Assembly (NCBI RefSeq): GCF_009812055.1
Contig: NZ_WQNH01000047.1
Location: 1 to 64,000 of the forward strand
Length of the DNA stretch: 64,000 bases
Direction of reading: 5' to 3'
Source: Chelativorans xinjiangensis
Lineage (GTDB): Bacteria > Pseudomonadota > Alphaproteobacteria > Rhizobiales > Rhizobiaceae
Every line of letters begins with the position of its first letter. The stretch's first letter is position 1. Below, piece by piece: positions 2,571-17,584 of the stretch. Below the pieces are notes generated by a model, which saw only the letters and a program-made list of their open reading frames with translations, was not told where the DNA came from and did no database searches. The position numbers were made by a program, and so were the translations under genes.

Positions 2571-2864
2571 TCAGCCGAGCGACTTGATGATCTCCCGATA
2601 GGCCTCCTCCGGGAAGGCCTTCAGCGTGCGGGTGCGCACATTGCCCGCCATGCCGAGTTCCAGCGCGAAGCGCGCCGCCACCGCGTCGTCCGGCGCCTCG
2701 GCGATCGCCACCATGTCGCACTCGCCCATGGTGAGATAGAACGCCTTGAAAGCGCCGCCCATCTCCGAGAGCGCCTTCTTGGCGGCGTCGAGCCGGCTGG
2801 GCGACTCGCGCACGTTCTTCACGCCCTGCTCTGTCCAGTTCACAAGCATGATGTAAGTGGTCAC
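2571..2864 (-). CDS. GYD-domain protein, host of the attachment site
   Basis: A 97-residue ferredoxin-like-fold protein of the GYD family (PF08734), with YIMLVNWTEQGVKN at the N-terminus and YLTMGECDMVAIAEAPDD in the middle. The function of the family is unknown. The start is GTG at 2864, preceded by GGGAGG at correct spacing. Both the ribosome-binding site and the start codon lie inside the 20-bp direct repeat that bounds the phage-like element. The coding part is intact, but everything upstream of 2877 is now element DNA, so the gene has lost its original promoter region, which should be the sequence beginning at 17585. Confidence 0.85.
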   Translation of the reverse strand: MTTYIMLVNWTEQGVKNVRESPSRLDAAKKALSEMGGAFKAFYLTMGECDMVAIAEAPDDAVAARFALELGMAGNVRTRTLKAFPEEAYREIIKSLG

Positions 2865-2877
2865 GTCACACCTCCCT
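2858..2877. repeat. Attachment-site repeat, left copy
   Basis: TGGTCACGTCACACCTCCCT, identical to 17565-17584; the flanking bases differ at both ends, so the identity is exactly 20 bp. On the minus strand it supplies the GGGAGG ribosome-binding site and the GTG start of the GYD gene. Confidence 0.85.
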
Positions 2878-3464
2878 TTGATACGCTAAGATATTGTTAT
2901 GTAAGCACTTCTAGCGATTTTTTCGCTTGGCTATCCCGTCTATGGCAACTGAACAGCAACAAATCTGCGTGCTGCTCACCCAAAACGCCGGGCTGCTATC
3001 GCCAGAAGATAAAGCCGATGGGAGGAGTTTCAACTGCGGATGCGAGGTCGGGCAGGCTGCGGAGATGCACAGATGTGCGGACATTCTCCGCAAGTGTCCA
3101 GAGAAATCCTCTCTCTCTCTCAATAAGGGCCCAGGAGATGCTGCGGTCTTTGGCCACTTTTGCCCAGAGAACTCAGAAGTCTAATGATTTCAGCGGCTTA
3201 CACGGTATAATTTTCTAACACATTGATTTCATTGATCTTTCTTAACAGAGCCTTTGGAAAGGGCGTGCTCCGCGCGAAGGAAGCGCCGTATCGCACGGTC
3301 CTCGCCAGCTGAAACATCTCAAGTGCATGAAGTTCCCGCCGTCCTATGCATGCTGCGCATGCGGCTGCGCCGTCGAGATACGCTCACCGCGCCGTCACTC
3401 AGCCGCGCAAAGCCGTCAGCAACGCGACACCGATCACGACACGCGCACTGCGGCTCGCACCGCT
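2878..3464. other. Left-end non-coding stretch of the element
   Basis: 587 bases with no gene I can support. An 85-codon frame at 2927-3184 on the plus strand lacks a ribosome-binding site and any recognisable sequence. The stretch beside the repeat is AT-rich and may hold integrase arm sites, by analogy with other attachment regions. No promoter with good hexamers points towards the GYD gene. Confidence 0.5.
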
Positions 3465-3740
3465 CTATCTCTCTGTGATGACGATCTCAGCCGGATCAAA
3501 CGCCCGCCCTTTCAAGGAAGGTTCGCCCCACGTCGCCTTACGCTGCGATAGTATCCATTGGTCAATAAGCCGCGTCGTCGTGACGATCTGACCATCTGGC
3601 ATCGTACCTGCCGGAAAGCCTCGCTGCTTAAGCCATCGCTGGATCGTCCTAGGAGTGCGGCCGCAATATGCGCCGATGCTGCGGAGGCCCACAAGCATGT
3701 CAGCGGAGCCTTGGAATTTGGCGAATTGGCGGGCTGTCAT
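3465..3740 (-). CDS. Small HTH DNA-binding protein
   Basis: A 91-residue protein with a helix-turn-helix: LRSIGAYCGRTPRTIQRWLKQRGFPAG at about residues 19-45, followed by a VTTTRLIDQWI helix, the layout of MerR/excisionase-like or small-terminase-like wings. It overlaps the lysozyme gene by ATGA and is the last gene of the virion cassette before the left end. In tailed phages a small HTH protein near structural genes may be a small terminase subunit, but no large terminase follows, so a regulatory role is equally possible. The function is not settled. Confidence 0.6.
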   Translation of the reverse strand: MTARQFAKFQGSADMLVGLRSIGAYCGRTPRTIQRWLKQRGFPAGTMPDGQIVTTTRLIDQWILSQRKATWGEPSLKGRAFDPAEIVITER

Positions 3741-4780
3741 CCGAACAGATTGCCCAAGCGAGGAAGCTGCGGCGTTTGCCCGCTGCCTAGTGGCTGCAAT
3801 GGCCCGCTTTGCGCCTGTTGTTCGAACATCTGTTGTGCGGCTGCGAAGTTGGGCAATTCCGGCACGAACCGCTCTTGCTCGCTTCCCGCTCCCAAGCCGG
3901 AGAGCGCGCCGCCCAATATATCGCCCAACCGCTCTTTCCGCGTTCGCAGGTCTCCAGTACGCACCGGATCACGGCTTGCTGCCCGGCCAAGCAACTCATC
4001 CCCGCTCCCCGGCCCGCGCATCGGCTGGCCCGCCCCGCCCAACGCGCCCTCAACAGCGCCCCGCTGGCCCGCCTCAAGTCCGTCGAGCCATCTGCGATAG
4101 GCCGCTTGGTCCGTCACATCAACATCGGCTTCATTGCCCCTTGCGAAGCTCGTGGCAACGCCAAGCTGCCGCTGCGCAAACGCGAGCCGATTGCTCCATC
4201 CATGTATCTGCGCCGGATCGGTGTTCTCCCAGCCTTGCCAACCGCGTGGGCGTTCGAACCCGGCCATGGCGAATGCGGCCTGCTCGACATTCTGCGCACC
4301 CTTCAACCGCCGTCCGGCTTCAACCTCATTGTTCCGAAGCTCGAAATCAGCGAACCGAAGCTGCGTGTCGAAGTCCCTCCAATCGGCGTTGTTCCGCTTC
4401 GCAAAGGCTTTCAGATTGTCCAGCCGATCACCGCGCCATTGGAAAATGCCGTGCGCCGTGCCGTTGTCGCCCACGGCATTGGGATTAAGCCCGCTGCCAG
4501 ACTCCTGCATCCCCGCCCCGACAATCGCACTCGCCTGCACCGGACTCCAGCCCATGCCCATAAAGAAGGCTTGGGCATACGATTGTCTGGCTGCGGGATT
4601 ACGTGGAGGCGGGGCGGAGGCGGCACGCCGTAGCACCTCATCATCTGGCTGCTGCGCATTCGCAGCTTGCAGCCCGCCTCTCGGCTGGCTCGCTGGCCCG
4701 CCCGCATTGACGACCGTGGGCCGCGCTAGCTCCCGCTTCGGGGGCGTAAAGATTCGGCCAAACGGGCTCTCACCTACCAT
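3737..4780 (-). CDS. Phage tail-type lysozyme
   Basis: A 347-residue protein with a Phage_lysozyme2-type domain (PF18013) at about residues 65-175. The signatures are FFMGMGWSPVQASAIVGAGMQESG, with the likely catalytic Glu in QESG, then GTAHGIFQWRGDR and a W-DF-TQL-F helix. Such domains are virion-borne muramidases that open the peptidoglycan during DNA entry. The C-terminal half is low-complexity and Gly/Gln-rich with no recognised domain. The start ATG at 4780 has an excellent AGGAGG. It is followed by the HTH gene with an ATGA overlap and preceded by a 210-bp gap that carries the oppositely directed 30-residue gene. Confidence 0.8.
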   Translation of the reverse strand: MVGESPFGRIFTPPKRELARPTVVNAGGPASQPRGGLQAANAQQPDDEVLRRAASAPPPRNPAARQSYAQAFFMGMGWSPVQASAIVGAGMQESGSGLNPNAVGDNGTAHGIFQWRGDRLDNLKAFAKRNNADWRDFDTQLRFADFELRNNEVEAGRRLKGAQNVEQAAFAMAGFERPRGWQGWENTDPAQIHGWSNRLAFAQRQLGVATSFARGNEADVDVTDQAAYRRWLDGLEAGQRGAVEGALGGAGQPMRGPGSGDELLGRAASRDPVRTGDLRTRKERLGDILGGALSGLGAGSEQERFVPELPNFAAAQQMFEQQAQSGPLQPLGSGQTPQLPRLGNLFG

Positions 4781-4822
4781 TTGTCATGCCTCCTATGCTC
4801 GCCGCGAAGGCGGAAAAAGGAA

Positions 4823-4851
4823 TATGTTCCTCTGTCGAAGTGTGCTATACT
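4823..4851 (+). promoter_or_regulatory. Extended -10 promoter for the 30-residue gene
   Basis: TGCTATACT is an extended -10 with a consensus-like TATACT at 4846-4851, about 38 bases before the start codon. The -35 at the proper distance (about 4823) is poor, as expected for extended -10 promoters. It points opposite to the virion operon. Confidence 0.5.
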
Positions 4852-4888
4852 TGCCCCTCAAGTCACTGAAATAAGGGAACAAATCGTC

Positions 4889-4981
4889 ATGTTTGAAATC
4901 CTTCTGACAATCGGGTTTTTCCTTTTGTGGGTGCTGTACGTCTTGTCCATCTGGTGGACAGACTACCGGCCCCTTGATTAG
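4889..4981 (+). CDS. 30-residue single-span membrane peptide
   Basis: A mini-gene running against the virion operon in the gap between the two large genes. The peptide starts MFEILLTIGFFLLWVLYV; about residues 3-22 form one hydrophobic helix, followed by a short polar tail with WWTDYRPLD. An AAGGGA ribosome-binding site stands ten bases upstream of ATG, and an extended -10 promoter lies further up. Such tiny membrane proteins inserted in virion operons with their own promoter resemble phage morons, for example superinfection-exclusion or lysis-modulating peptides. That role is inference; no homologue is recognised. Confidence 0.55.
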   Translation: MFEILLTIGFFLLWVLYVLSIWWTDYRPLD

Positions 4982-4989
4982 TGGCAGCG

Positions 4990-6498: not shown

Positions 6499-7946
6499 CA
6501 CCGCACCTCTTCAAGTTCGCCGGTGTCAGGATTGAAGCGGAAACGCTCACTTGGGGCACTGCCGCCCGCTTCGCCTCCGTCGCCCCCTTGGCCCAGAAGC
6601 GCCCGCAGTTCCGGGCTCAAAATGGACTGCCGATCAAGTGCAGCAATCTGCCTGCGTGCCTCGGCTGCCGATATCTCATCATTCTGGAATGCGATCACCA
6701 CGTCGCCGCGTGCGCTGTTGATATCCGCCTTCGCTTTGAAGGCCCCGGCGATTAGCCTGTTAGCCTCAGGGTTGTTTCGCAACCGGGGAAGGCCACTTCG
6801 CATCGCATCGAACTCTACATCGGACGTGGAACCGCTGCCCTCAACACGAAGCGTCGGCGTGAGACGGTTCACGATGGCCGTGAAGGCCGCAGCCGCATTG
6901 TCGAACTGCGGGAACGCCTCCGCTAGCCGACCGGTCAAGCCGCCCTGCGGGGCAATCTCTATAAGCTCATCCAGCAATTCAAAATCTTGCCGTTGGCCTG
7001 CTGCCTGATTGGCCGCCTCGACATGCGCAGCCCAGATTTCACCGGTCTTTTTTCCAAGCTCCTCTCGCAGCTTCGTTTCGGCGGGGTCTTGTCCGCGCTC
7101 AAACTCCAGGCGCTCCTGCTCCCGCGCGCCCGTCTGTATCTCGTCGGCAAGCTGGAGCCGAAAATCCCGTTCCTGCTCAAGACGTACCGCTAGCTCGTTA
7201 TCGCCAACCCGGACAGCTTCACGGATTTGGTTTGTCAGGCCCAACGCTTCCTGGCGAAGCTCTTCCGGGCGCATCGTTTCGGGAGGCTGCTGGCCGGGCT
7301 GCCCTATAGGTTGTTGGGCACCGATATCAGGTGCGGCAGTCACCAAGCTTTCGGGTTGGAACATCTGGCCAAGTGTGCCGCCTTGGGGTTGGGGCGGCTG
7401 ACCAGCGGGTTGCCCACCGCCGCCTAGTATCTGACTGCGCTGGCTCTGCTGCGAGAATTGCCGGGCTTGGTCAAGCGCCTGATCTAGGGTCAATTGCCCG
7501 TTCGCCACAGCCGCGCTCATCTGGGTCAGCCACCCCGGAGGCGCACCCTTATGTGCGGCGAAGAGAAGCTCCCGCGTGGACTGTAGGGTTTCATCCTTCA
7601 GCCCAGCGAGCATCTTGTCAAAGTCTTTGAAGAAGGGCGTGCTGGTATCCGCGCCAAGCCGCCTAGCGCCCTCGCGAAGCATGAAGCGCCGCATTGCAGG
7701 ATCGTTCTTCGGATCGAGGGATTTCGACCAAAAGTCGAGCGCCTGCGCATCCTTCGCCCGGTTCTCAAATTCGGCCTTCTGCTCGGCCAGCGATTGCGCC
7801 CTCTCTGCAATCTGATTTTCAAACTGCTGCTGTTCGCGCTGGAGCTGCAAGCTCAAGGCATCCCGCTCACGCTCTGCCCGCGCCTCGCGAGCTTGCTGGA
7901 AGCCCTTCCCAAAACCGACCGCGAAGCTGGTAAACCCGTTGCCCAT
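6498..7946 (-). CDS. Virion-type coiled-coil protein
   Basis: A 482-residue protein. Residues 1-15 (MGNGFTSFAVGFGKG) resemble the start of podophage internal proteins. About 16-80 is a charged coiled coil rich in Glu, Gln and Arg, followed by a helical region, a Gln/Pro/Gly-rich linker at about 185-240 and a second helical half. There is no catalytic motif. The start at 7946 overlaps the preceding stop as TGATG, with GGAGGG upstream. An open frame extends to 8003 but would overlap the previous gene heavily. Size and order before another large Ala/Gly-rich gene and a lysozyme fit an internal-virion (ejection) protein set. Confidence 0.65.
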   Translation of the reverse strand: MGNGFTSFAVGFGKGFQQAREARAERERDALSLQLQREQQQFENQIAERAQSLAEQKAEFENRAKDAQALDFWSKSLDPKNDPAMRRFMLREGARRLGADTSTPFFKDFDKMLAGLKDETLQSTRELLFAAHKGAPPGWLTQMSAAVANGQLTLDQALDQARQFSQQSQRSQILGGGGQPAGQPPQPQGGTLGQMFQPESLVTAAPDIGAQQPIGQPGQQPPETMRPEELRQEALGLTNQIREAVRVGDNELAVRLEQERDFRLQLADEIQTGAREQERLEFERGQDPAETKLREELGKKTGEIWAAHVEAANQAAGQRQDFELLDELIEIAPQGGLTGRLAEAFPQFDNAAAAFTAIVNRLTPTLRVEGSGSTSDVEFDAMRSGLPRLRNNPEANRLIAGAFKAKADINSARGDVVIAFQNDEISAAEARRQIAALDRQSILSPELRALLGQGGDGGEAGGSAPSERFRFNPDTGELEEVR

Positions 7947-8191
7947 CAGTGCACCCTCCCTGTCGTCGCCTCGGCCAACGCGCCGCAAGCTGGCGTTACG
8001 CACAGCATCACGTCATCCCGCTTCCCTATACAGAAGCCGAAGGTGTCCATTGACGTAACCACGGTGAACATGTCTTCGCCTATGAAGGCTGCGGCGGCTG
8101 CAAGCGAAGGGACCAGCATCGCGCCACCAGCCCCGGATATTTGGTATCCGCCCGGCCATGTCTCGCAGTACGTGGCTTCAATCTCAGGCAT
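7946..8191 (-). CDS. Small protein of the virion cassette
   Basis: An 81-residue protein with no recognised domain. It has a fairly hydrophobic centre (about residues 24-40, AMLVPSLAAAAAFIG) and three cysteines, but nothing that clearly spans a membrane. It overlaps the upstream gene by eight bases and the downstream gene by one. Its reality rests on this coupling and on sharing strand and style with its neighbours. Confidence 0.55.
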   Translation of the reverse strand: MPEIEATYCETWPGGYQISGAGGAMLVPSLAAAAAFIGEDMFTVVTSMDTFGFCIGKRDDVMLCVTPACGALAEATTGRVH

Positions 8192-8408
8192 CGGCCTTGG
8201 CCCTATTTACCCAATTCGCAAGCACGGTAATCTTGTCTGGGCCGTCTTCTCTGGGCGTACGTTCGATCACCTTGCTGATAGCAGCCCGGCCAAGAGCGAC
8301 AGTCCTCCGATGGGCGTCTATCGCCGCGTCGAGGGACAGATATTCATCCCCAATGCGCCGACCATCGTGGCCGTACACGCGAATGTGCTGGTAGGGCATC
8401 ATGCTCAT
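8184..8408 (-). CDS. Small protein of the virion cassette
   Basis: A 74-residue protein, MSMMPYQHIRVYGHDGRRIG at the start, with a mixed alpha/beta pattern and a basic middle. No family is recognised. It overlaps the upstream gene by ATGA and the downstream gene by eight bases, which implies translational coupling in the cassette. Confidence 0.55.
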   Translation of the reverse strand: MSMMPYQHIRVYGHDGRRIGDEYLSLDAAIDAHRRTVALGRAAISKVIERTPREDGPDKITVLANWVNRAKADA

Positions 8409-8587
8409 GGATTGCCCTCCTCTAGCACGCGCTCAAGCTGGGCTTGCTCGGCCTCGGCCAGCCGGTTCCATTCCTCTTCGAAGGTCTTGAAGGCGTCCTT
8501 GCGCCTGTCATGCTGGCGGAGGAGACGCATAATCAACGCGGCCTGCGAGGCCCGAATGACATGCAAGGGCATGCGGTTCGCGCTCAT
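8405..8587 (-). CDS. Small helical protein of the virion cassette
   Basis: A 60-residue, strongly charged helical protein; the second half (FKTFEEEWNRLAEAEQAQLE) has heptad character. It overlaps both neighbours by ATGA. It may be a chaperone-like or assembly peptide, but that is only suggested by its composition. Confidence 0.5.
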   Translation of the reverse strand: MSANRMPLHVIRASQAALIMRLLRQHDRRKDAFKTFEEEWNRLAEAEQAQLERVLEEGNP

Positions 8588-9087
8588 AGCGGAAGCTCCC
8601 CGGCATTGCCGACCATCGCCCTCAAGGCTTCGATCTGCTGCGGCGTGAATGCCGCCTTCGCCTTCTTCGCACGTTCCTGTGCCTCCTTCTCTGCGGCTTC
8701 AGCTTTGGCCTTCTGCTCGGCCTCAAGGGCCCTGCGCTCGGCCTCTTCTTCGGCACACCACTTGGCTTCTTGCTTCTTTCGCTCGGCCCTCTCGGCAGCT
8801 TCCCGCTCGGCCTCTTCCCGCCTGCGCTTAAGTTCCTTCTCCGGGATGGCGAAATTGCTGAAGGGCTCCGCAGCTTCTTTCACTTTCGTGGACACGAAAG
8901 CCTTAGCCCGGCTTGCCTCTATCAGCGCCTCAAGCTCCTGCACGCCAGCACCGAAGTGCAACCGGGCCAATTCATCGAGGGCCGTGAGCAGAGAGATAGC
9001 CTTCTTGTTCTCTTTCGAGCGAGGGTCCGCACCAAGCACCTTGGGAAGTTTCGTGTGATGGACTTTCCTATCGGGATAAAGGGGCAT
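8584..9087 (-). CDS. Coiled-coil protein of the virion cassette
   Basis: A 167-residue protein. About residues 85-145 are an uninterrupted Lys/Glu/Arg/Ala helix with repeated AEREAAERAE-type heptads, and a short globular N-terminal part precedes it. No catalytic motif is present. Long charged helices are common in phage scaffold and tail-assembly proteins. It overlaps the next gene by ATGA and is 62 bp from the previous one. The family is not recognised. Confidence 0.6.
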   Translation of the reverse strand: MPLYPDRKVHHTKLPKVLGADPRSKENKKAISLLTALDELARLHFGAGVQELEALIEASRAKAFVSTKVKEAAEPFSNFAIPEKELKRRREEAEREAAERAERKKQEAKWCAEEEAERRALEAEQKAKAEAAEKEAQERAKKAKAAFTPQQIEALRAMVGNAGELPL

Positions 9088-9149
9088 CGGTCTTCATCTC
9101 TCTAAGCTGCCGGTTACGCAAAGATTGCACGTCTGCGGCGTGTCATCTG

Positions 9150-9410
9150 CTATCTTCCTCGGTGCGGCTGGGTCGGAAAGAGCTTCTGTTGAGCCTTGTC
9201 ATTTGCGGAAAGGCGCTGTTGCTTGCGAGCACGGACTAGTGAGCCAAGCGAGGTATGCCCGGATGGCACTTCCCCATCGGCTCCCGCGAACGCGGCGGCC
9301 TCTTCGGCATTGCTGAAAAAGCGCGTCGTGCCTGCGATGGGCTGGCCGTCTCGGTCGATCTGCACGGCGCTATTCTGGCCGTAGTGTCCGTAGGTCCAAC
9401 GTCCCCTCAT
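9150..9410 (-). CDS. Small protein of the virion cassette
   Basis: An 86-residue protein, MRGRWTYGHYGQNSAVQIDR at the start, then a short beta-type segment and a basic C-terminus (PTQPHRGR). No domain is recognised. It overlaps the upstream 68-codon gene by ATGA. The function is unknown. Confidence 0.5.
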   Translation of the reverse strand: MRGRWTYGHYGQNSAVQIDRDGQPIAGTTRFFSNAEEAAAFAGADGEVPSGHTSLGSLVRARKQQRLSANDKAQQKLFPTQPHRGR

Positions 9411-9613
9411 TTCCGCACCCCATCGGGCACATAGCGACCGGGGTTGCGCTTGTTCTCCTGCATGATCCGTTCATGCCTGCGCGTGAACTCTGGAGGAGGC
9501 ATATCGAGCTTCTTAAAGCCCGTCTTCGCCTCCTCGCCGTCCATGAGACGCTGGAGCGGTTTCTTGTCCCAACCCTTCGGGCCAGCCTTCCGGCTTCGGT
9601 TGATGCTGGTCAT
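9407..9613 (-). CDS. Small basic protein of the virion cassette
   Basis: A 68-residue basic protein with many Lys and Arg (start MTSINRSRKAGPKGWDKKP) and a RRHERIMQENKRNPGRY helix near the end. It overlaps both neighbours by ATGA. The charge would suit nucleic-acid or virion packing, but nothing proves this. Confidence 0.5.
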   Translation of the reverse strand: MTSINRSRKAGPKGWDKKPLQRLMDGEEAKTGFKKLDMPPPEFTRRHERIMQENKRNPGRYVPDGVRK

Positions 9614-9795
9614 TTCGTCTGCAATCCCTTGCTGGGCCGGTTGTTGTAGGTAGAAGGCTTGACGATGCCCTTCGGAAACGGATCGGCCTTTTTGCCGAAC
9701 ATCAAATTGCCCGACATGATCGGACCTTGGGCGTCCGTAATCACCTTACGGTTTGCCGCGGCACGCGCTTTCATCGATGGGAAGTCGGTAGGCAT
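9610..9795 (-). CDS. Small basic protein of the virion cassette
   Basis: A 61-residue protein starting MPTDFPSMKARAAANRKV. The frame is open to 9960, but the upstream part looks non-coding in composition, and GGAG ten bases before 9795 supports this start. It overlaps the next gene by ATGA. The function is unknown. The 170 bases between its start and the scaffold-like gene hold nothing recognisable; in a complete podovirus, head genes would be expected in this part of the operon. Confidence 0.5.
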   Translation of the reverse strand: MPTDFPSMKARAAANRKVITDAQGPIMSGNLMFGKKADPFPKGIVKPSTYNNRPSKGLQTK

Positions 9796-9967
9796 TGGTT
9801 CAATCTCCGTGTTGTTAAGAGGGAAGCCGGGAGGAGCGCCACACGCGGCAAGGCAAGAAGCAGGCGGCTCAAACTCCCGGTATGGGGCGACCAATTGCAC
9901 GCAGACCAAGCGCGGGGGCCCACATCGCAAATCCCCACACAAGGCGGCTGGCCGCTCCATCTCGCGT

Positions 9968-10453
9968 TTACTCCGCCTGGGGCCGGCGCCGAAACTGCAA
10001 ACCCGCTTCCCGGCGAGCCTGCTTACGCTGCTTTAGGACGTCGCCCATACTCCCCTCAGGAAATCCCGTCTCCTGGTTGATCCGGGGTCGGCGGTTTGGC
10101 TGGCCGAAGGGTTCACCATCCTGCGGGAACTGGCCTGACGGCTCCGGCCCATTGCCAAGCCGCTCGATACGATCCCGGACAAGCCCAGCTAGCTTCTCAC
10201 TGGCTTCAGCAACCGGGATATCGGCCAAGTCTTTCATGTTGGCGTTCAGCACGGCCTGCACCACGTCATGGTCTTGGGGATTGATATCCTTATGCTGGCC
10301 ATAGAAGCCGTTCCAGAATTGCTGCTGACCCTGATGTTGAGTGTAAGCTTGCGTCACCTGTTGGACGGCCTCTTGCACGGCTTCCTGCTTAACGCGCTTG
10401 AGCGTGCCGTCTGCATCTCTATAGAGGTCGTCAGAATAGCTACCTTCAGGCAT
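9968..10453 (-). CDS. Scaffold-like acidic/Gln-rich protein
   Basis: A 161-residue hydrophilic, helical protein that opens the leftward virion cassette. Residues about 15-45 are Gln/Glu-rich (RVKQEAVQEAVQQVTQAYTQ), a helical region follows at about 60-95, and the tail is Pro/Gly/Arg-rich. The composition and first position resemble capsid scaffolding proteins, yet no capsid gene follows. AAAGGA stands about nine bases upstream of ATG 10453. It is divergent from the gene at 10589, with a candidate operator between them. The scaffold idea is weak inference. Confidence 0.55.
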   Translation of the reverse strand: MPEGSYSDDLYRDADGTLKRVKQEAVQEAVQQVTQAYTQHQGQQQFWNGFYGQHKDINPQDHDVVQAVLNANMKDLADIPVAEASEKLAGLVRDRIERLGNGPEPSGQFPQDGEPFGQPNRRPRINQETGFPEGSMGDVLKQRKQARREAGLQFRRRPQAE

Positions 10454-10537
10454 TTCATAAGTCCTTTCGAAGAAACCGGGTGAGCGGGCGGGTTCCGCCG
10501 CGCTATCGGGATGATTTTCGGCTGATCGACCGGTATT

Positions 10538-10570
10538 TTGCAAGTGAGATTTGTATTATACTATACAAAT
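10538..10570 (+). promoter_or_regulatory. Promoter with overlapping operator-like inverted repeat
   Basis: TTGCAA (10538) and TATACA (10562) are 18 bases apart. An inverted repeat with 8-bp arms, ATTTGTAT and ATACAAAT around a 6-bp centre (10549-10570), covers the -10. It lies between the divergent virion cassette and the 113-residue gene, so it is a good candidate switch site. Confidence 0.5.
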
Positions 10571-10588
10571 ATGATGCAAAGGTGCAGG

Positions 10589-10930
10589 ATGATGGCCGGA
10601 AAAATCCAGAATGCGATGCTTGAATACTTCGCAAAAGCATTCTCACTCGAAAAACCCCTTCAAAGGGTCTTGGACGTGAGGCAGCTAGCGGAATTTTACT
10701 GTTGGGAATATCAAGACTACGACGACGAACAGCCGCCCACCGCAAGCGACATGCAGAAGGTCACGAGGGCTGCTTTGAAGATGGGACCGTACATGGGCTA
10801 CATGCCCTTTTACATCGGCCCTAAGCGGGAATTGCACTTCGCCCATTGGCAGGACGAACAAGCCTTGATCGCGCTGGGGGCGTTGAGCGCAGAACTCCAC
10901 AAGGGCAGGAATGCGGTTGGCAGCGCATAG
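10589..10930 (+). CDS. Unknown 113-residue protein, divergent from virion cassette
   Basis: A protein of unknown function with a central YCWEYQDYDDEQPPT stretch followed by DMQKVTRAALKMGPYMGYMPFYIG. The pattern suggests a small alpha/beta fold, perhaps a winged helix, but I cannot name a family. The start at 10589 (ATGATG) has AAAGG seven bases upstream; the frame is open to 10538. A promoter with an operator-like inverted repeat lies directly upstream. The position opposite the virion operon fits a phage regulator, which is inference only. Confidence 0.55.
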   Translation: MMAGKIQNAMLEYFAKAFSLEKPLQRVLDVRQLAEFYCWEYQDYDDEQPPTASDMQKVTRAALKMGPYMGYMPFYIGPKRELHFAHWQDEQALIALGALSAELHKGRNAVGSA

Positions 10931-11420
10931 GATTTATTGGCCCCGCTTCGCATCACGAAGCAGCCTCTACCCCGGCCAGTCAGCCCCCCAAATCCCCCAC
11001 AGCCTGCTATCCCGAAACAGAGACCGTAATGCGTTTTTGGGTACTCATTCGGATTGTTCCCTTCGGTACGCCGGCGGAGTGAGAAAGGGAGCGGGCCGAA
11101 GCCCGCCCCAGTTGCCCGCACGCTCGCGGCGGCGCCCAGCATCCAGTTTCGCGTATTTGCAGGCATGAGAACGGGCAGGGAACAGAGAATCACGTCATTA
11201 TAACGGCGCTTCACCTATCGCCATAAAACGGTCTGCGGTACGCTTCACTATTGGTTGTTGAGTCGCGTGCAAGTAGCGAGGCCCCCCAGACTGGTGGGTT
11301 CGGCCTCAAAGACAAATGTCGACGGCGTGGTAGTTGATTCGTATCCTCCACAGTTTGCCCCTCCTACAAACTGGATTCACGTCAGCTCACGATTCGTCGT
11401 TGTGTATTGGTGAGAAGAGT
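10931..11420. other. Non-coding gap within the element
   Basis: 490 bases without a supportable gene. It holds two stable hairpins: GCGGGC-CGAA-GCCCGC near 11090, and one near 11278-11308 with GAGGCC and GGCCTC arms. Neither has a T-run. A small RNA or an origin is possible but unsupported. Confidence 0.4.
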
Positions 11421-11633
11421 ATGACCGAAGATCAGTATTGGTCGGCCATTAGGAACCATTTCGGGCTGATACCTAGCAGGTTTCGTGCTGGTGATATGGT
11501 TGTGTGTCGTAACAGAGAGAACCAGCAGCAGTACGTTCGTGATCCTGCCGGAATGACGCCCGACGAACGAATCAACGAGTTAAGGAACCTGGCCGCCGTT
11601 ATGGATGTGGAGCCACCTACTACACTCTGCTAG
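11421..11633 (+). CDS. Small unknown element protein
   Basis: A 70-residue protein, MTEDQYWSAIRNHFGLIPSR at the start, with a short region VVCRNRENQQQYVRDPAG and a helical end. No family is recognised. The ATG at 11421 is chosen over the open frame from 11334 because a weak GAGAAGAG precedes it and the upstream part looks non-coding. Its end overlaps the convergent HicB-like gene by four bases. Confidence 0.45.
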   Translation: MTEDQYWSAIRNHFGLIPSRFRAGDMVVCRNRENQQQYVRDPAGMTPDERINELRNLAAVMDVEPPTTLC

Positions 11634-11875
11634 GCGGCACGTGTTACCGGCACAGCGACCCAAGGCGCCGGCACATGGGTATCGGCGGCCTCCGTTTCCG
11701 AAACGAGCACCTCTATGCCATCCGCTAGGTACATTACCCGGATGGCTTCGGGGATGTTCGCCATAACCGAAGCCTCGTCACGCCCGCTCACGTAGAGGCC
11801 CGGCAAATCGTTACTGGTCGCGTACACAAGGCTATTCGCCTTGGTTAGCGAGACATTGATAATCTTCGCCTTCAT
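11630..11875 (-). CDS. HicB/DUF1902-like single-domain protein
   Basis: An 81-residue protein with the small HicB/DUF1902-type fold: a first strand KIINVSLTKANSLVYATS, then NDLPGLYVSGRDEASVMANIPEAIRVM, as in HicB antitoxins. There is no HicA partner and no added DNA-binding domain, so it is an orphan. GGGAGG eight bases upstream of ATG 11875 decides the start; the frame is open to 11896. It may be a stray antitoxin or a regulator of element genes. Confidence 0.65.
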   Translation of the reverse strand: MKAKIINVSLTKANSLVYATSNDLPGLYVSGRDEASVMANIPEAIRVMYLADGIEVLVSETEAADTHVPAPWVAVPVTRAA

Positions 11876-12283
11876 TTTGTCAGTCCTCCCGCGCACGATC
11901 TCGCCCCCGCATTACCGGCCAGTTAACGCACGCGTACATAGGAGATGCTCCACAATGGCAACGTGTCAAGCGCATTGCAGCACGCTCTCTATGTATTTCG
12001 CAAGTGCGAACATATCAAGGCTGCGTTGCAAATGTCGCATATCAGGCTGGCGTAGAGCTTGTGGCTCAACCTCGTAGCTCCCTTCGTAAGCGCTGCGTTC
12101 TCACGCGCGGTGTGCTGATTGATGCGCCGAAACCGACACGCTTTGCCGTCCGCCCGCCGCCGTGGTCGCTCTGCGGAGCCGTTGCTGCACCGGAGACGGT
12201 CTGACAGAATCGCTCGCTGACGGCGCTTCTCCGTGCCGCTCTGACGATGCGCAAAAAGTGCGCAAGGCAACAGGAAATCCCAA
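11876..12283. other. Non-coding gap within the element
   Basis: About 400 bases with no convincing gene. A 41-codon plus-strand frame at 11954 has an AGGAG box but an improbable Cys/Ser-rich product. Two related stretches, CATATCAAGGCTGCG (near 12013) and CATATCAGGCTGGCG (near 12039), could be regulator sites. Confidence 0.35.
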
Positions 12284-12436
12284 ATGAACATCCCTGCAAA
12301 CTCCCCGATCCTTTCGGTTGCCACCCTGACAAACGGTCTACAAAAGATCACCCTGAAATCTGGCAAAACCATCACTGGGCTTTACGTCCCCGCCGCCTCG
12401 GCTTCTGCGGCCCACGCGGCAAAGTCCCTTCGATAG
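12284..12436 (+). CDS. Possible 50-residue protein
   Basis: A short frame giving a 50-residue peptide that begins MNIPANSPILSVATLTNGLQ and continues with KITLKSGKTITGLYVPAASA, a plausible beta-hairpin followed by an Ala-rich helix. AGGAAATCCC stands upstream at acceptable spacing. It runs convergent to the 113-residue Cys-protein gene and overlaps its 3' end. It has a natural residue composition but no family match. Confidence 0.35.
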   Translation: MNIPANSPILSVATLTNGLQKITLKSGKTITGLYVPAASASAAHAAKSLR

Positions 12437-12713
12437 GGACTAGCACGTAACCGCCATCATGCAGGGGGCTGCCCGGCTTACAATGCGCTAAGCGGTGGCC
12501 TCCTGCATCGTCCGGTAAGCTGTGGACGTGGCGGACCTCGCAGTAGGGGCAGTCAAAGGCCAAGCCGCTCTCTGTTCGCTCGCATTCTATGATGGGAACA
12601 CCGCCATTTTCACGGCGGCTTTCCTCGATCTCGGCCATGCATAGCAGGCGGTAGCGTTCGTATTCGTCCATGCTGTCGAGCATGGCGTGGAGTTGATCGA
12701 GCTTGGTGGTCAT
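12372..12713 (-). CDS. Small protein with CPYC/HC motif
   Basis: A 113-residue protein: an acidic helical N-terminus (about 1-35), then FDCPYCEVRHVHSLPDDAGGHRL and AHC, a possible zinc-binding cluster of the CxxC...HxC kind, and a basic tail (PRRRGRKAQ). It overlaps the upstream ATPase gene by ATGA, so the two are coupled. A nucleic-acid-binding helper of replication is a reasonable guess. The family is not recognised. Confidence 0.55.
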   Translation of the reverse strand: MTTKLDQLHAMLDSMDEYERYRLLCMAEIEESRRENGGVPIIECERTESGLAFDCPYCEVRHVHSLPDDAGGHRLAHCKPGSPLHDGGYVLVPIEGTLPRGPQKPRRRGRKAQ

Positions 12714-13930
12714 TGCCCCAAGCCTCCTTTCTTGAGTAGTTCCAGAGATGGGATGTCAACCTCGTCTGAGAGCTTCCAAAGCTTGTCGTTTATCCTTCCG
12801 CGTTGTGTAAGCTCCAAATCTTCAAGCTCCTCCAGAGCGCGCGCAACTGTGCTTCGTGGGATATGGGCGGCCTTCACAATATCCTCACGCTGCATCGCCT
12901 TTTCTTCGAGCAGGGCCAGCATGATGGCGAGGCGGCGTTGCTCGATGCTGTCGCGGGCGCAGCGCATAGCCGCCCGCATAGCCGCCTCACGGCTTAGGCC
13001 GATTGCCATCCCGCCCCGCACAAGCTGCTTCAACTGCTTCAGGAAGCGGGTTGGCTGCTCCGGTTCGTACATGCCAAGGAAGACGCCATCCTCCCGCCTA
13101 GCGGGCGTTCTCATCAGGGTGGCGATGTCAGCCACGTCTAGCAAGCGGTCCTCGTCCTCAACGGTAAGGGCGGGCAGGCTTTCCGGCTCGACGGCCTCTA
13201 GCAGCCCGGTCACGCACTCCGAAAGCTCGGCCCGCATTTGGACTTCATGTTCGCTATTGTCCCTCGCTTGGCGACCCTTCTCACGCCGATTTCGCCGGCC
13301 ATCCAGCCGTACAAGCATGAAGCGTTCGCCCATCTGGCTTATTACCCCATAATGGCGGTCATACTCTGAGGTGGAGGCTCCTATGATTGTGATGCGGCCT
13401 TCCCATTCTGTAGTTCTGCCGCCATCAGCGCCGGAGCTTCTGATCCAATACCCGTCGTAGATTTCCCGCAGTGCGGCTAGTATCTCCTGGCGGGCTTCGT
13501 AGGGACGGCTTAAGACGCTGGTGAAATCTTTCAGTATCAGTATTCCCCGATTACCCATCTTTCTGAGTATGCCGCCCGTACCGCCTTCCGCCTCTTTCTT
13601 GGGCGTGTGGCTCATGAGGGAGGATGCATTCGTCAAATGGCTTTCGAAGAAAGCCCCTTCCCTGAGCGACGTTACAGTTTCGGTTTTTCCGTCGCCGGAG
13701 CCGCCTATAATCATCAGCCAGACGGCCTCACCATCCAATTGTTGAACAGCGGCGGTTGCTAGAACGATGTCGAGGAATTCTAGATCATAGGCATCACTGA
13801 GCCACCGACGAAAGGTTTTTTGGACCGCTCGAAGTCTTTCCGCTTGCGGATTTGTGTCATGGTTAAGCTCAGCGGGAGGAGAAATCCCCGCTTGACTTCC
13901 GGAATCTGTCGGTGTACTCTCGCGTTGCAT
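12710..13930 (-). CDS. P-loop replication-type ATPase with C-terminal winged helix
   Basis: A 406-residue protein. The Walker A is GGSGDGKTE (about residues 77-85). It is followed by a conserved stretch GILILKDFTSVLSR (Walker B-like), then LAALREIYDGYW and GRITIIGAST, a pattern known from ATPases of phage, ICE and plasmid replication modules. The last 70 residues hold a winged helix, REDIVKAAHIPRSTVARALEELE. It is probably the element's helicase/primase-type replication ATPase, although a primase motif is absent. It lies behind a hairpin terminator and before the coupled Cys-protein gene. Confidence 0.7.
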   Translation of the reverse strand: MQRESTPTDSGSQAGISPPAELNHDTNPQAERLRAVQKTFRRWLSDAYDLEFLDIVLATAAVQQLDGEAVWLMIIGGSGDGKTETVTSLREGAFFESHLTNASSLMSHTPKKEAEGGTGGILRKMGNRGILILKDFTSVLSRPYEARQEILAALREIYDGYWIRSSGADGGRTTEWEGRITIIGASTSEYDRHYGVISQMGERFMLVRLDGRRNRREKGRQARDNSEHEVQMRAELSECVTGLLEAVEPESLPALTVEDEDRLLDVADIATLMRTPARREDGVFLGMYEPEQPTRFLKQLKQLVRGGMAIGLSREAAMRAAMRCARDSIEQRRLAIMLALLEEKAMQREDIVKAAHIPRSTVARALEELEDLELTQRGRINDKLWKLSDEVDIPSLELLKKGGLGQ

Positions 13931-13978
13931 ATGGAAATCCGACTGGCTGCTACAGGTTGCGGTTTCTATTTCTCCAGT

Positions 13979-14013
13979 AAAGGGGCCCTAGAGTTGCTGC
14001 TAGGGCCCTTTTT
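13979..14013. terminator. Bidirectional hairpin terminator
   Basis: The arms CCCTAG/CTAGGG, extended by GGG/CCC and A/T pairs, enclose an 8-base loop and end in a T-run on the plus strand. It separates two leftward genes, so on the minus strand it would act as an attenuator between the coiled-coil gene and the ATPase gene. Confidence 0.6.
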
Positions 14014-14019
14014 CTTGGG

Positions 14020-14223
14020 CTATTCCGCCTTCTCCTCTAGCGCCTCAACACGCTCCGCCAGCGTCACAAGCTCCGAATTTTCGGACGCTTCGAGCGCGCC
14101 AACTCGCTGGTGCAGATTGGACAACACGTGCAGGACGCCAGCCACGAACTTGCGCTGTGTGTCGGCGGTCCACGGGTTCGGCTCCTGCTCCGGTTGGGGC
14201 TGGGCTTGGCTATGCAAGTTCAT
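14020..14223 (-). CDS. Small coiled-coil protein
   Basis: A 67-residue protein. The N-terminus is Gln/Pro-rich; residues about 28-67 form a leucine-zipper-like helix (VLSNLHQRVGALEASENSE and LAERVEALEEKAE). It starts inside the end of the HTH gene, overlapping by 14 bases. It could be a dimeric accessory factor of excision or replication. No family is recognised. Confidence 0.5.
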   Translation of the reverse strand: MNLHSQAQPQPEQEPNPWTADTQRKFVAGVLHVLSNLHQRVGALEASENSELVTLAERVEALEEKAE

Positions 14224-14494
14224 CGTTCTCACTCCTGTTGTCTCCACTCTCGATAAGGTCCAGCCACGCGTGATAATCGCGGAGTCGGACAAGGGTGCTG
14301 CGGCCATGCTTGAAGGTGCGCAGACGGCCTTTTTGGATTTCCTCGTACACTTTCGTCTTCTGGAAGGGTGCCATGCGGATCACTTCCTTGAGCCGCAGCA
14401 ATTGCCGCGCGGGGTCGCCCATCGTGATTTCCGCTTGAAGGTCGGCTAGCCCTTTGAGGGCGCTATCTATCGTGTCGTGTGTGGGGGTTGCCAT
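14210..14494 (-). CDS. AlpA/excisionase-like HTH protein
   Basis: A 94-residue protein whose second half is an HTH_17-type domain: LLRLKEVIRMAPFQKTKVYE, then IQKGRLRTFKHGRSTLVR and a final helix. This is the layout of AlpA and excisionase proteins that work with P4-type integrases. ATG 14494 is preferred; the frame is open to 14614. It heads the leftward replication module and lies 360 bp downstream of the integrase gene. It may bind the attachment site or the early promoter. Confidence 0.7.
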   Translation of the reverse strand: MATPTHDTIDSALKGLADLQAEITMGDPARQLLRLKEVIRMAPFQKTKVYEEIQKGRLRTFKHGRSTLVRLRDYHAWLDLIESGDNRSENDELA

Positions 14495-14853
14495 CAAACA
14501 AGCCTCCGATAGGCACACTGAGTGCGCCGTTGTGGATCGGGTGGCCCCCTGAGGGGACCGTTTCGCTTGTTTGTTGGGGTTATTTTCAGCCTGCGTATGA
14601 GGCCGCCCCGTCATGGCTATTGTGCGGAATATCCGTTTCCGCCGAAGACCGTTCTAGCACGGTGCACCGCGCGATGTCTTTGCAAAATTTCATTGTTTTG
14701 ATGCAAGAAAACCGTGCCTTTCACGCAATCCATGCATGATCTATGCACGCCACACAGTGAAAACTCCCTGTTTGTGCGCTAATTGCAGGAAGCGCGCAAA
14801 AAGAAGGCCCCTGTTCGGGGCCAATCGTACACGCTCCTGGACGAAGCACGATT
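14495..14853. other. Intergenic control region, integrase to HTH gene
   Basis: About 360 bases with no gene. The right part holds the integrase terminator. The rest, AT-rich around 14685-14760, should contain the promoter of the leftward replication module. An imperfect repeat of TTGCA and TTTTG elements near 14680-14710 may be an operator. Confidence 0.4.
14796..14822 (-). terminator. Intrinsic terminator of the integrase gene
   Basis: GGCCCC and GGGGCC arms around a 5-base loop, followed on the minus strand by TTCTTTTT. It begins 32 bases after the integrase stop codon. Confidence 0.8.
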
Positions 14854-16164
14854 TTAAGCATGCACGGGACGAAGTTGCCGCACGTTGTCAGCCTCGACAA
14901 GCCCAACCAGCACGCGCAACCGGTTGTCCCATGCGGCTAGCGCCTGCTCAACGCGAGGGTCAAGCTTCGGCCTCACATAACGGCGTACGAGCGTGATGGT
15001 TGCTGCTGTCCCGCGTTGATGCCCGAGAACCGATGCAATCGTGTCCAGCGGGATTTCCAACTGCTCATCCATCTGCGTGGCGACCGTGCGGCGCAGATCG
15101 TGCGATGTGAAATGGGCGCAGGGCAGCTTGCGCTTATCGAGGGCTTTGCCCAGGTCGGTTGCTAAAAGTGGGCGATCCGACATAGCAGCTCGGAACAGCG
15201 GACCTTTGACCCATATATCAAGCTGCCTTTCCACGATCTCGCGGGCGAGGCCGACCAACGGCGTCACGCGCTCACGTTTGTTCTTCGACCGGGCGGCGGG
15301 AAGTGTCCAAAGGAGCTTTGTTTCGCCGTCCGCGTCTGGCTCGGTTTCGTGAAGTTCCGCCGCCGTCATTCCGCCGATCTCACCAATCCGCGCCCCGGTG
15401 CATAGCTGCAAGCGAAGGGCTGCAATACAGTCTGGCGGCATCGCTGCCGCTCCGGCATCGAACCATTCCCACAGCGCCTTAATCTCGTTGGGTGTGGGCT
15501 GCTCCTTCGCGTCACGCTCACCGCCTGTGAGCACCCGCTCACGTGGCTCGCCCCGGCCGTAGGTCTCCGTGCCGTCAACCGGATTGTGCGTCACATAGCC
15601 TTTCGAGAGGCCCCAACGGTACATCGTGCTGATCTGCTGGCGGCTAATCTCGGCTGCCCGCGCATGGCCCTTGTTATAGATAGCATCGAGCAACGCACTC
15701 ATATCGCTGCGCGTGAGGCTGTCGGCCTTCCTGTCGAGGTGCGGTTTCAGCACCCTGCGCAGACGCTTCATAATGTCATCCGCTGTGCGCAGTGGGCCAC
15801 CGTTGCGCTTCGGATGGGTGATTGACTTCTCATATTCGTCTAGCAGGAACGAGACGGTTTTTTCCGTCTGTTTGGCACGCCGTGCTTCGTCCTCTTCTGC
15901 GATCAAATCCCGGCCTTTGCTGGCAGCATTCATGATGTCGGCAGCGCGCTTGCGCGCATCTGCAAGCGTCCAAACGCCGTAGGCTCCGAGGGAGAGGCTC
16001 TTTGTTCCGGCCGCACCGCGAATGCGATACGACATGACGAATGTCTTACTTCCGGCTGGAGTGACGCGGAGCATCAATCCCGGCTGCTGCTCGTCTCCGA
16101 CGCGATAAGCCTTTGCCGAGGGCTTCTGTGCATTGATGAATGTGTCTGTGAGCTTCTTCTTCAT
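14854..16164 (-). CDS. Tyrosine integrase, P4 type
   Basis: A 436-residue site-specific recombinase. The N-terminal DUF4102 arm-binding domain (about 1-95) has KLTDTFINAQKPSAKAYRVG and SYRIRGAAGTKSLSLGAYG. A core-binding domain follows, then the catalytic domain with Arg in LQLCTGARIGEIGGM, HDLRR at about 360 and a Tyr late in RRYVRPKL. ATG 16164 has GGGAGCAGGG upstream; the frame is open to 16200. It almost certainly recombines the 20-bp repeat at 2858 and 17565. It lies 1.4 kb from the right end, with two cargo genes between, rather than against it. P4-type integrases usually target tRNA genes, so this site is unusual. Confidence 0.92.
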   Translation of the reverse strand: MKKKLTDTFINAQKPSAKAYRVGDEQQPGLMLRVTPAGSKTFVMSYRIRGAAGTKSLSLGAYGVWTLADARKRAADIMNAASKGRDLIAEEDEARRAKQTEKTVSFLLDEYEKSITHPKRNGGPLRTADDIMKRLRRVLKPHLDRKADSLTRSDMSALLDAIYNKGHARAAEISRQQISTMYRWGLSKGYVTHNPVDGTETYGRGEPRERVLTGGERDAKEQPTPNEIKALWEWFDAGAAAMPPDCIAALRLQLCTGARIGEIGGMTAAELHETEPDADGETKLLWTLPAARSKNKRERVTPLVGLAREIVERQLDIWVKGPLFRAAMSDRPLLATDLGKALDKRKLPCAHFTSHDLRRTVATQMDEQLEIPLDTIASVLGHQRGTAATITLVRRYVRPKLDPRVEQALAAWDNRLRVLVGLVEADNVRQLRPVHA

Positions 16165-16308
16165 TATCCCTGCTCCCGTCCAAGTGTTGTGTAGCAACAA
16201 TATAGGACCTGGGAGAGTCGCTGCCTACTGGGGAAAAAGCCGCCCTCTCGGCGCTTGCTTGTCGTCCCGCGCCTCAAGAGGTACTCTTTGCACTTGGGAG
16301 GGCTAGTC

Positions 16309-16776
16309 ATGATTAGGCTATCGCTACTGCTGGGCTGCATGATCGCGGGCAGTTGCGCAGGTACAAACGTTATTCAGACATCCGAAAACACCGCTATTGT
16401 GCAAGCGAGCGCCGCCCCCATTTGCGGCGGCATCGGCGCGGCACGGGTAGCGCAAAAGCAGGCTGCTATCGCAACGCTCCAAGCGGGCTTTGATCGCTAT
16501 GTGATTATGGGATCAAGTGCTGCCAACAACACTCGCGTTTCCCAGGGTCCCGGCACCTATCAAACGACCGGCATCTATGGCGGCGGCATGATGAACGCCA
16601 CGACCGTGTATCAGCCCGGCCCCGTCATCCATTCGGGCAGCCACGACCAGGCATTCGCGGTAAGGATGTTTCGTGAAGGCGAGCCGGGGGCGGCACAGGC
16701 CATCTCTGCACGCAATGCGCTCGGGCCGGAGTGGGAGAAGGCGGTGGAATCGGGATCGCTGGCGACGTGCCTCTAG
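16309..16776 (+). CDS. Cargo: small secreted or lipoprotein-like protein
   Basis: A 155-residue protein with a short hydrophobic leader, MIRLSLLLGCMIAGSCAG, that holds two possible lipidation cysteines. The rest is Gly/Ala-rich, with a helical part (VAQKQAAIATLQAGFDRYVI) and a Gly/Thr/Tyr segment (GTYQTTGIYGGGMMNATTVY) typical of exposed surface proteins. GGGAGGG upstream of ATG 16309 decides the start over 16255. It lies between the integrase and the right end, so it travels with the element. No family is recognised; an envelope change in the lysogen is a possible role. Confidence 0.6.
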   Translation: MIRLSLLLGCMIAGSCAGTNVIQTSENTAIVQASAAPICGGIGAARVAQKQAAIATLQAGFDRYVIMGSSAANNTRVSQGPGTYQTTGIYGGGMMNATTVYQPGPVIHSGSHDQAFAVRMFREGEPGAAQAISARNALGPEWEKAVESGSLATCL

Positions 16777-16823
16777 GTCAAGGCCGACTGTTTGCAACTC
16801 TGTAATATGCGGGAGGGGGGATC

Positions 16824-17330
16824 ATGTTTGGCCGAAATCGACGCAAGGCCACTGAGCATACCATCCAAGCCATTCAGCCGTTGATTGCCACCTACCAAAA
16901 CTTTAGCGGCCTTCCGCCGCATTTTTGGCGAGATGAATTCGTTCTCGGCTTCATCGGGGTCATGATCGGCTTTCACGGCAGTGTCACCTCGGGTCGATCA
17001 TTGTCCCAAGCTGACAAGGGTTATCTTCTCTATGACGTCTTCACCGCCCTTTCAAACATGAACGGGCAAGCTATCGGCAGGGACTACACCCGCCTTGCTA
17101 CGCAATCTCCCAAAAGCCCGGATTTTGAGAAAGGCGCCCATCACGCATCAATTTGCGCCCTCGCTTCTATCGGAAAGATAACTGAGGAAGGCCAGCCCTA
17201 CTACGAGCAAGCTGAGGAGATGGCGGCAGCGCAGGGAACGCCTAACGATGTTGGTGCTATAATCGGCTCCCTTCTGCACATACTCTTCTATCAGCCTTTG
17301 CAAGAACGGTTCGACTTAGGCTCCCCCTAG
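16824..17330 (+). CDS. Cargo: unknown 168-residue protein
   Basis: An all-helical soluble protein with no signal peptide. It starts MFGRNRRKATEHTIQAIQPL and contains GLPPHFWRDEFVLGFIGVMIG and ASIGKITEEGQPYYEQAEEM. No catalytic motif is visible and I do not recognise the family. GGGAGGGGGG stands about six to seven bases upstream of ATG. It follows the lipoprotein-like gene by 47 bp on the same strand, so the two probably form one cargo unit. Confidence 0.55.
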   Translation: MFGRNRRKATEHTIQAIQPLIATYQNFSGLPPHFWRDEFVLGFIGVMIGFHGSVTSGRSLSQADKGYLLYDVFTALSNMNGQAIGRDYTRLATQSPKSPDFEKGAHHASICALASIGKITEEGQPYYEQAEEMAAAQGTPNDVGAIIGSLLHILFYQPLQERFDLGSP

Positions 17331-17564
17331 CCGCACTCCGTCCCCTGCTGACCCAAAATTTTCTCAGATTTGCCAGTGCGCCTATGCCCTAGAGCAGGGT
17401 GCCAAGGGGCCAACCCACCCCCTCCGCAGGGTGCGGCTGTAGCAACGCTATGGCAACATTTCGGGCGGCTCTCGGCGGTCTGCGGCGGATGCTAGCGGAG
17501 CCTCAACGCCTTGCGCTGCAACGGTTTGCGGAGCGTGACGAACACGGGCGGAACGCCCGGAAGC

Positions 17565-17584
17565 TGGTCACGTCACACCTCCCT
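17565..17584. repeat. Attachment-site repeat, right copy
   Basis: Identical to 2858-2877 over 20 bases. No coding frame that makes sense crosses it here. Joining the outer flanks restores GTG and GGGAGG in front of the GYD gene followed by the sequence from 17585. Confidence 0.85.

Follow-up and report, generated by a model that had tools for sequence, protein, structure and literature searches.

An attachment-site-bounded island with phage ejection genes and no detectable head genes in Chelativorans xinjiangensis: a possible phage satellite and its relatives

An island between attachment repeats, with an ejection operon

The stretch analysed here (hereafter the window) comprises the first 64,000 nucleotides of contig NZ_WQNH01000047.1 of Chelativorans xinjiangensis, and holds at 2858-17584 a phage-like island of 14.7 kb, bounded by two exact 20-bp direct repeats (att, attachment sites; left copy TGGTCACGTCACACCTCCCT) with a spacing of 14,707 bp. 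By our own arithmetic, the chance expectation for an exact 20-bp repeat pair in 16.5 kb is about 1e-4. A small host gene (2571-2864, minus strand), which we take to be of the GYD type, abuts the left repeat with its 5' end. When the two flanks are joined, a single alignment spans the junction (query position 250) in five of 16 genus genomes: G281 (95%, query 1-350), G322 (93%, 1-356), G398 (77%, 1-366), G090 (81%, 34-334) and G396 (79%, 10-297), leaving out three matches that stop within 10 bp of the junction and are uninformative. These genomes show the target unoccupied, which identifies the site and marks the element as inserted DNA. The island looks like an intact mobile element and, like satellites in general, is integrated, att-bounded, below phage size and devoid of some virion genes.

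On the minus strand, the element consists of an integrase, a weakly AlpA-like regulator, a small protein, an AAA/winged helix-turn-helix (wHTH) protein and two conserved small genes, followed by an operon, tightly coupled according to the list of open reading frames (ORFs), that encodes a 191-amino-acid (aa) protein, small proteins, proteins of 501 and 503 aa, a tail lysozyme and a winged-helix protein (Table 1). An earlier note on this DNA had named an integrase, an AlpA-like factor, a replication ATPase, and a coupled operon with two internal-virion-type proteins and a tail lysozyme. The integrase (PF13356, PF00589) and the operon (ORFs, phage homology, profile models, PF18013) stand as described; the AlpA-like match is present and weak (PF12728 below its cut-off, phrog_66 2e-4), while AAA (0.03) and wHTH parts are seen in the ATPase, whose replication role is assumed. 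This ATPase has no match among 50,697 phage records.

The ejection genes are what links the element to podoviruses. The first 40 residues of the 503-aa protein are 66% identical to gp31 of Sinorhizobium phage phiM5, an internal virion protein annotated as detected in the particle, and two other phage proteins match it more weakly; the 501-aa protein aligns with gp15 of Rhizobium phage RHph_I3_18 (31% over 29% of the length, E 5e-9). The lysozyme resembles an earlier part of the same gp15 (31%), as well as an 861-aa protein of a podoviral prophage resident in the genome (48% identity over 152 aa). As lysozyme and 501-aa protein match separate parts of gp15, the element seems to hold these parts as two genes. 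Among the loci in hand, iterated hidden Markov models (HMMs) joined the 503-aa protein to a 20-member set including phiM5 gp31, and the 501-aa protein to a 12-member set with RHph_I3_18 gp15, the members being mostly from phages; by this homology to particle-detected ejection proteins, the genes belong to the podovirus ejection module. Ejection proteins of short-tailed phages exit the head with the DNA and form a path through the cell envelope (PMC8954989).

The modules of phiM5 (gp28-31) and RHph_I3_18 (gp15-16) likewise bring together homologous ejection proteins, with a lysozyme domain and large proteins in one cassette, but they belong to phages of 43-44 kb with terminase and other virion genes (known by annotation in phiM5, partly named by eye in RHph_I3_18), whereas the element of 14.7 kb has no shell genes. 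Between the ejection gene and the lysozyme gene lies a small plus-strand ORF, membrane-like by eye (window 4781-4981); the DNA upstream of it is kept in the sister element of Nitratireductor luteus described below, where a different exported-looking ORF follows (L008 14890-15363).

Table 1. Features of the element in the window, with identities to the N. luteus element (id, identity)
Feature	Position	Strand	Evidence or remark
Left attachment repeat	2858..2877	.	exact 20-bp repeat; empty site in relatives
wHTH protein, excisionase-like or small-terminase-like	3465..3740	-	phrog_66 5e-4, phrog_57 0.006, both weak; 47% id
Phage tail lysozyme, third part of ejection set	3737..4780	-	PF18013 9e-25, phrog_9570
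Ejection (internal virion) protein, 503 aa	4990..6501	-	phage homology, iterated HMM
Ejection protein, RHph_I3_18 gp15 type (C-terminal domain), 501 aa	6498..8003	-	likely start 7946
Small ORF overlapping likely start of next gene	7946..8191	-	no tblastn match in N. luteus element
Small ORF	8184..8408	-	no tblastn match in N. luteus element
60-aa protein	8405..8587	-	58-60% id
167-aa charged protein	8584..9087	-	44% id
Small ORF	9150..9410	-	counterpart by position and eye: L019 11645-11881
Small operon ORF	9407..9613	-	ORF list
Small ORF	9610..9960	-	likely start near 9798; C-terminus like L019 11878-12051 (N. luteus) by eye
191-aa protein, predicted helical, first operon gene	9968..10543	-	scaffold role only suspected
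ORF	10538..10930	+	30% id
Second conserved block outside recognised genes	11081..11119	.	40 columns, 90% id
Conserved small ORF	11334..11633	+	72% id over 69 aa
88-aa protein, weakly HicB-like	11630..11896	-	phrog_497 0.023; 80% id
Conserved 113-aa protein	12372..12713	-	72% id
AAA ATPase with wHTH, presumed replication/control	12710..13930	-	AAA 0.03 and wHTH
Small protein, coiled by eye	14020..14307	-	ORF; no Pfam/PHROGs family
HTH_17/AlpA-excisionase-like regulator (weak)	14210..14614	-	PF12728 0.0017 (below its cut-off), phrog_66 2e-4
Tyrosine integrase	14854..16200	-	PF13356 2e-17, PF00589 5e-11, PF22022, phrog_1
Cargo ORF adjoining attR	16255..16776	+	ORF; no Pfam or PADLOC match
Cargo ORF adjoining attR	16824..17330	+	ORF; no Pfam or PADLOC match
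Conserved 58-bp block outside recognised genes	17343..17400	.	77.6% id
Right attachment repeat	17565..17584	.	exact 20-bp repeat

Head genes and the sister element in Nitratireductor luteus

Capsid, portal, terminase and neck genes, the set that would mark a complete podoviral prophage, were not found among 20 ORFs of the element in PHROGs and Pfam; three more ORFs searched in Pfam and dedicated head HMMs added no head gene, in agreement with the earlier note, and sequence searches of the PDB yielded nothing useful. As a control, the head HMMs recovered a portal in 17 of 17 phage regions, six of which had supplied seeds (16 by the general model, five seeds among them, and one by its own seed only), together with a terminase in 14, a capsid protein in 14 and a neck/stabilisation protein in 13; apart from those of phiM5, the portal, capsid and neck seeds were named by eye. 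None of eight headless elements was matched by any head model. The case for absence is strong but not absolute, since the same HMMs missed a terminase that PHROGs showed in a related locus (G131).

The same gene order, which the earlier note had proposed to seek in other genomes, recurs in N. luteus, where 56-bp repeats (95%) at a tRNA-Arg gene enclose an element of 15.2 kb that shares the operon and the control genes. It is equally headless by the head HMMs, and differs from the window element in its integrase (named by eye, at the opposite end), its ATPase (at the position of 12710-13930), its cargo and its target. The operon proteins are 44-72% identical and free of stops, and the nine genes common to both elements are open in both, with nonsynonymous divergence (dN) of 0.10-0.57 and synonymous divergence (dS) from 1.15 to saturated. 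Judged from the coding sequences, the operon architecture is under purifying selection in this second species, and such long-term conservation rules out a recent loss of the head genes. The gap at 9796-9967, where the earlier note had placed a possible head-gene deletion, is no scar: it is ordinary spacing, with a counterpart of 142 bp at the same place in N. luteus (L019 12052-12193; from ORFs). An ORF resembling the AlpA-like gene by position and eye (L009 4163-4570) has no tblastn match to it.

Two blocks outside recognised genes are also conserved between the elements. In the circular form of either element, some 770 bp (771 and 776 bp, by our own arithmetic) separate the wHTH gene from the block beyond it that corresponds to 17343-17400, a distance kept although the integration modules differ; this block is a candidate packaging or replication-origin site. 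Its core 20-mer occurs exactly in 2 of 16 genus genomes, namely in the two elements, and with two mismatches at three places in two further genus genomes. A packaging site shared with a helper was considered for this 20-mer and rejected: the single IMG/VR match falls in a tail-fibre-looking gene and was taken as chance.

The 191-aa protein, which the earlier note called scaffold-like, shows the highest conservation among seven operon proteins compared (72% identity to its N. luteus counterpart), and ends in the motif S[LMI]GDV..xRK, as does L019 11645-11881. It has no Pfam or PHROGs family at E 0.01 or better, no match among phage records, and no profile similarity to phage scaffolds in hhalign comparisons with two to three sequences per side, a weak test. 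Its AlphaFold2 (AF2) model is poor (mean predicted local distance difference test score, pLDDT, 58.9), helical with a C-terminal helix at low confidence; Foldseek returned 135 fold hits with this model, none significant, those at ranks 1, 3 and 12 being named scaffolding protein (top hit E 0.019). On these grounds, homology to phage scaffolds was rejected, and the earlier designation is unproven. Going by the model, the protein could still act as a shortened scaffold of the kind suggested by G131. There, a 274-aa protein has homologues (31-39%) in four related prophages, encoded in the scaffold position between the portal and capsid genes, and is without an internal block of about 32 residues present in five phage scaffolds (341-386 aa). 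A shortened scaffold would be expected of a satellite that changes head size. G131 also has a PAPS reductase gene between its ejection genes.

Recurrence of headless ejection-gene islands

Of 397 genomes searched across the order, 7 had matches; one of these, G552, which belongs to another family, holds a second headless element with an integrase, an ATPase, a Holliday junction resolvase and two ejection proteins; a search for att repeats around it found none. With the G131 ejection protein, a family-wide search matched 15 of 394 genomes, one of them (G086) left out for its giant ORF. Two held headless elements, of 17.6 kb with att at tRNA-Thr (G284) and of 21.8 kb with att at tRNA-Arg and an integrase named by eye (G177); three lay on incomplete contigs (G131, G316, G098), and nine loci in phage context (G007, G057, G068, G074, G115, G170, G194, G250, G029), including G074, which has weak neck matches only and whose head genes would lie outside the stretch. 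The headless element of G284 also carries a TIR-domain protein (L081 10373-11176, PF13676 2e-11), possibly a defence gene.

The family-wide search with phrog_5880 matched 52 of 337 genomes, and the best 33 places, minus those of G284, G177 and G250, gave 30 loci, fetched as regions of about 20-37 kb, in which head genes farther off would be missed. Head genes were present at 14 of these, a terminase only at one (G280c), an integrase without head marker at 13, and neither at two (G096, G088); the 13 include G106b, cut 4 kb past the gene, and G246, with a short ejection ORF, and four loci lie near contig ends (G106b, G280b, G280c, G073). The other headless loci retain long open ejection ORFs. 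Four of the 13 have att repeats: G106a (19.8 kb, tRNA-Phe), G280a (25.6 kb, tRNA-Thr), G038 (19.0 kb) and G246 (13.9 kb, tRNA-Glu), which brings the att-bounded headless cases to eight in total, of 13.9-25.6 kb. Among 31 further ORFs of at least 270 aa from 11 of the 13 loci, five ORFs crossing a stretch boundary being left out, Pfam showed no head family, with replication, transposase, tail-collar, lysozyme and other families instead, and PHROGs none among the 25 of 91 families listed. Both G131 (L012 1-12889) and G280c (L199) are ejection-gene elements with a large terminase and no portal or capsid marker in view, and G280 harbours three separate ejection-gene loci (L195, L197, L199), with a portal or capsid marker in view at none.

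Class-wide, phrog_5880 matched 16 of 385 genomes, from 11 of which 12 regions were fetched. Head or neck markers were seen in G821, G911, G895, G791 (both regions) and G869; five without head marker (G855, G944, G1051, G1121, G816) are short contigs or weak matches and were not classed. In G1076 (C1, about 2402800-2405500, L127), a phrog_5880-type ejection gene is spread across three open frames in host context, and looks like a true remnant, in contrast to the intact elements.

On trees of the ejection proteins, the headless state changes at least twice (ej15, 12 proteins) and at least three times (ej16, 19 proteins), on well supported branches; these trees hold four headless elements and none of the 30 fetched phrog_5880 loci. 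The ej15 proteins of the window, N. luteus and G552 form one clade (100/98), and one ej15 lineage spans two bacterial families. With at least two to three state changes, either the arrangement arose repeatedly, or phages and elements of this kind exchange ejection genes.

Two further features of the window are a VapBC-like toxin-antitoxin pair, named by eye (17511-18421), which begins just before the right att site and extends past it, and a region at 34001-36000 where local G+C falls to 0.51 and 0.42, against about 0.66 around.

Satellite, remnant or defence island

P4-like satellites and SaPI-type phage-inducible chromosomal islands (PICIs) have sizes near 15 kb, an integrase and an AlpA-like regulator, and no capsid or tail genes, traits in which the element resembles them. 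PICIs further hold a pri-rep module and small terminase or capsid-morphogenesis genes, of which the element shows only the wHTH gene with its weak small-terminase match (phrog_57 0.006). P4-like and SaPI-type elements redirect helper capsids by Sid/Psu or CpmA/CpmB (factors named in PMC4936722, PMC10690885 and PMC6893505), whereas the element carries ejection proteins and no factor of either type is recognisable in it; no Sid or Psu family matched in the operon, these two proteins being said to lack sequence homologs (PMC11389934). Of the traits that define P4-like satellites in PMC4936722 (integrase, AlpA, P4-type primase), it has the integrase, a weak AlpA-like gene and no primase family match in PHROGs or Pfam. 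Capsid-forming PICIs carry their own capsid, portal and terminase genes (PMC10690885), none of which PHROGs, Pfam or the head HMMs found here. Like these and Mulch/Flayer, the element would bring part of the virion itself, but they bring capsid and packaging genes, and the capsid-forming PICIs take a tail (PMC10690885), while it has only ejection proteins and a lysozyme. PICMI and AH14b are likewise small integrated elements without capsid-remodelling genes (PMC10803314, PMC4936722), AH14b differing in being reported without structural-protein genes (PMC4936722); the word 'ejection' is in neither text. Among the matches listed in the searchable literature, which covers few subscription papers and not bioRxiv, no description of a satellite with its own ejection machinery was found. 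We regard the element as satellite-like, with a set of virion genes nowhere described in that literature.

We give a probability of roughly 0.6 to the reading that the window element is a satellite with its own ejection machinery, which would take its shell from a putative podovirus helper. It would excise and replicate by its own integrase and putative replication protein; a co-infecting or induced podovirus would supply shell, portal, terminase, tail and lysis, and the element the head-interior proteins (two ejection proteins and the tail lysozyme), its small scaffold-like protein possibly adapting head size to a genome of 15 kb. In such particles the outside would come from the helper and the inner equipment from the satellite, the helper head being filled with the element's ejection proteins, and satellite DNA would enter by its own conduit, not dependent on the ejection proteins of the helper.

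Which phage could be the helper? The resident podoviral prophage of the same genome (G000, contig C31 150000-190000; L041, L042) has a terminase (phrog_2) and, by eye, a portal, scaffold, capsid, tail protein and tail spike, with internal proteins of 861 aa (containing the tail lysozyme), 583 aa and 862 aa, also named by eye. It is a possible helper, set aside as a candidate for having no DNA in common beyond chance, a terminase present in 3 of 16 genus genomes, and two internal proteins that show no profile similarity to the element's ejection proteins (hhalign, two to three sequences per side, weak). An IMG/VR scan with the G552 ejection protein found no relatives, and one with an operon protein gave four tape-measure-like lysozyme domains, not operon relatives.

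Several observations weigh against a satellite of this kind. No helper was identified: among the proteins compared, the resident prophage matches the element only in the lysozyme domain (48%), the two have 14 14-mers in common where five control stretches gave 16-23, a search of the N. luteus genome for the prophage's terminase gene did not find it, and neither the genus genomes nor IMG/VR gave a convincing match of the conserved 20-mer in a helper. Operon proteins were used in three IMG/VR scans, pattern-based and sensitive to close relatives only, which gave no operon relative; no known satellite hijacking gene was recognised in the element, and the 191-aa protein is not demonstrably a scaffold. 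The head HMMs missed the G131 terminase, a tail-collar gene in one headless locus indicates that not every such element has interior proteins only, and if phages and islands exchange ejection genes, the trees could show separate origins where there were none.

Foremost among the alternatives, although unlikely in our view, is that these are decayed podoviral prophages that lost the head module and kept integrase and ejection genes. Related phages have their ejection genes last or almost last in the structural cassette, where one deletion could leave them behind, and broken or short ejection genes do exist (G1076, G246). Decay fits poorly with sister elements in two species that are both headless yet differ in att site, integrase and ATPase, with nine common genes open at dN far below dS, and with the long open ejection ORFs and several state changes on trees found elsewhere. 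Full-length podoviral prophages with related ejection proteins do exist, and no common deletion point, which the earlier note had named as decisive for head loss, was seen among them; even between the two sister elements, integrase and ATPase differ. The satellite proposal of that note, of satellite size and with its own ejection machinery, is better supported than head loss, being backed by conservation, recurrence and the changes on the trees.

Less probable again is that the islands serve defence or superinfection exclusion, ejection proteins and lysozyme made in the resident cell keeping related podoviruses from entering or assembling, without any transfer in particles. Defence-like genes do accompany some relatives (the TIR domain of G284, a weak PD-T7-3-like match in N. 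luteus), but mobility better accounts for the joint retention of coupled ejection sets, att sites and putative replication genes, and PADLOC matched none of six non-structural ORFs of the window element. An autonomous tiny phage with capsid, portal and terminase too divergent to recognise is very improbable: several operon genes lack a family and one real terminase escaped the head HMMs, but besides integrase, ATPase, ejection proteins and lysozyme no operon-strand ORF exceeds about 200 aa, too small for the usual portal or large terminase.

If the satellite reading is extended to the relatives, the 13 headless loci among the 30 fetched imply that the class may be common in this bacterial family. 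On the wider proposition our judgement is evenly divided: that common, polyphyletic satellites parasitise podoviruses from inside, with their own ejection machinery (some with a shortened scaffold or terminase in addition) and with shell and tail from helpers, having evolved several times in the Nitratireductor family (Rhizobiaceae in GTDB) and beyond. Satellites known so far redirect packaging, reduce head size or carry a capsid of their own. If true, a satellite equipped for entry would separate the builder of the particle from the opener of the target cell, and it would become testable whether ejection proteins limit host range or are exchangeable between particles. Headless prophage-like islands, readily written off as remnants, would also find an explanation, and those with ejection genes may be little-noticed phage parasites borrowing the shells of other phages.

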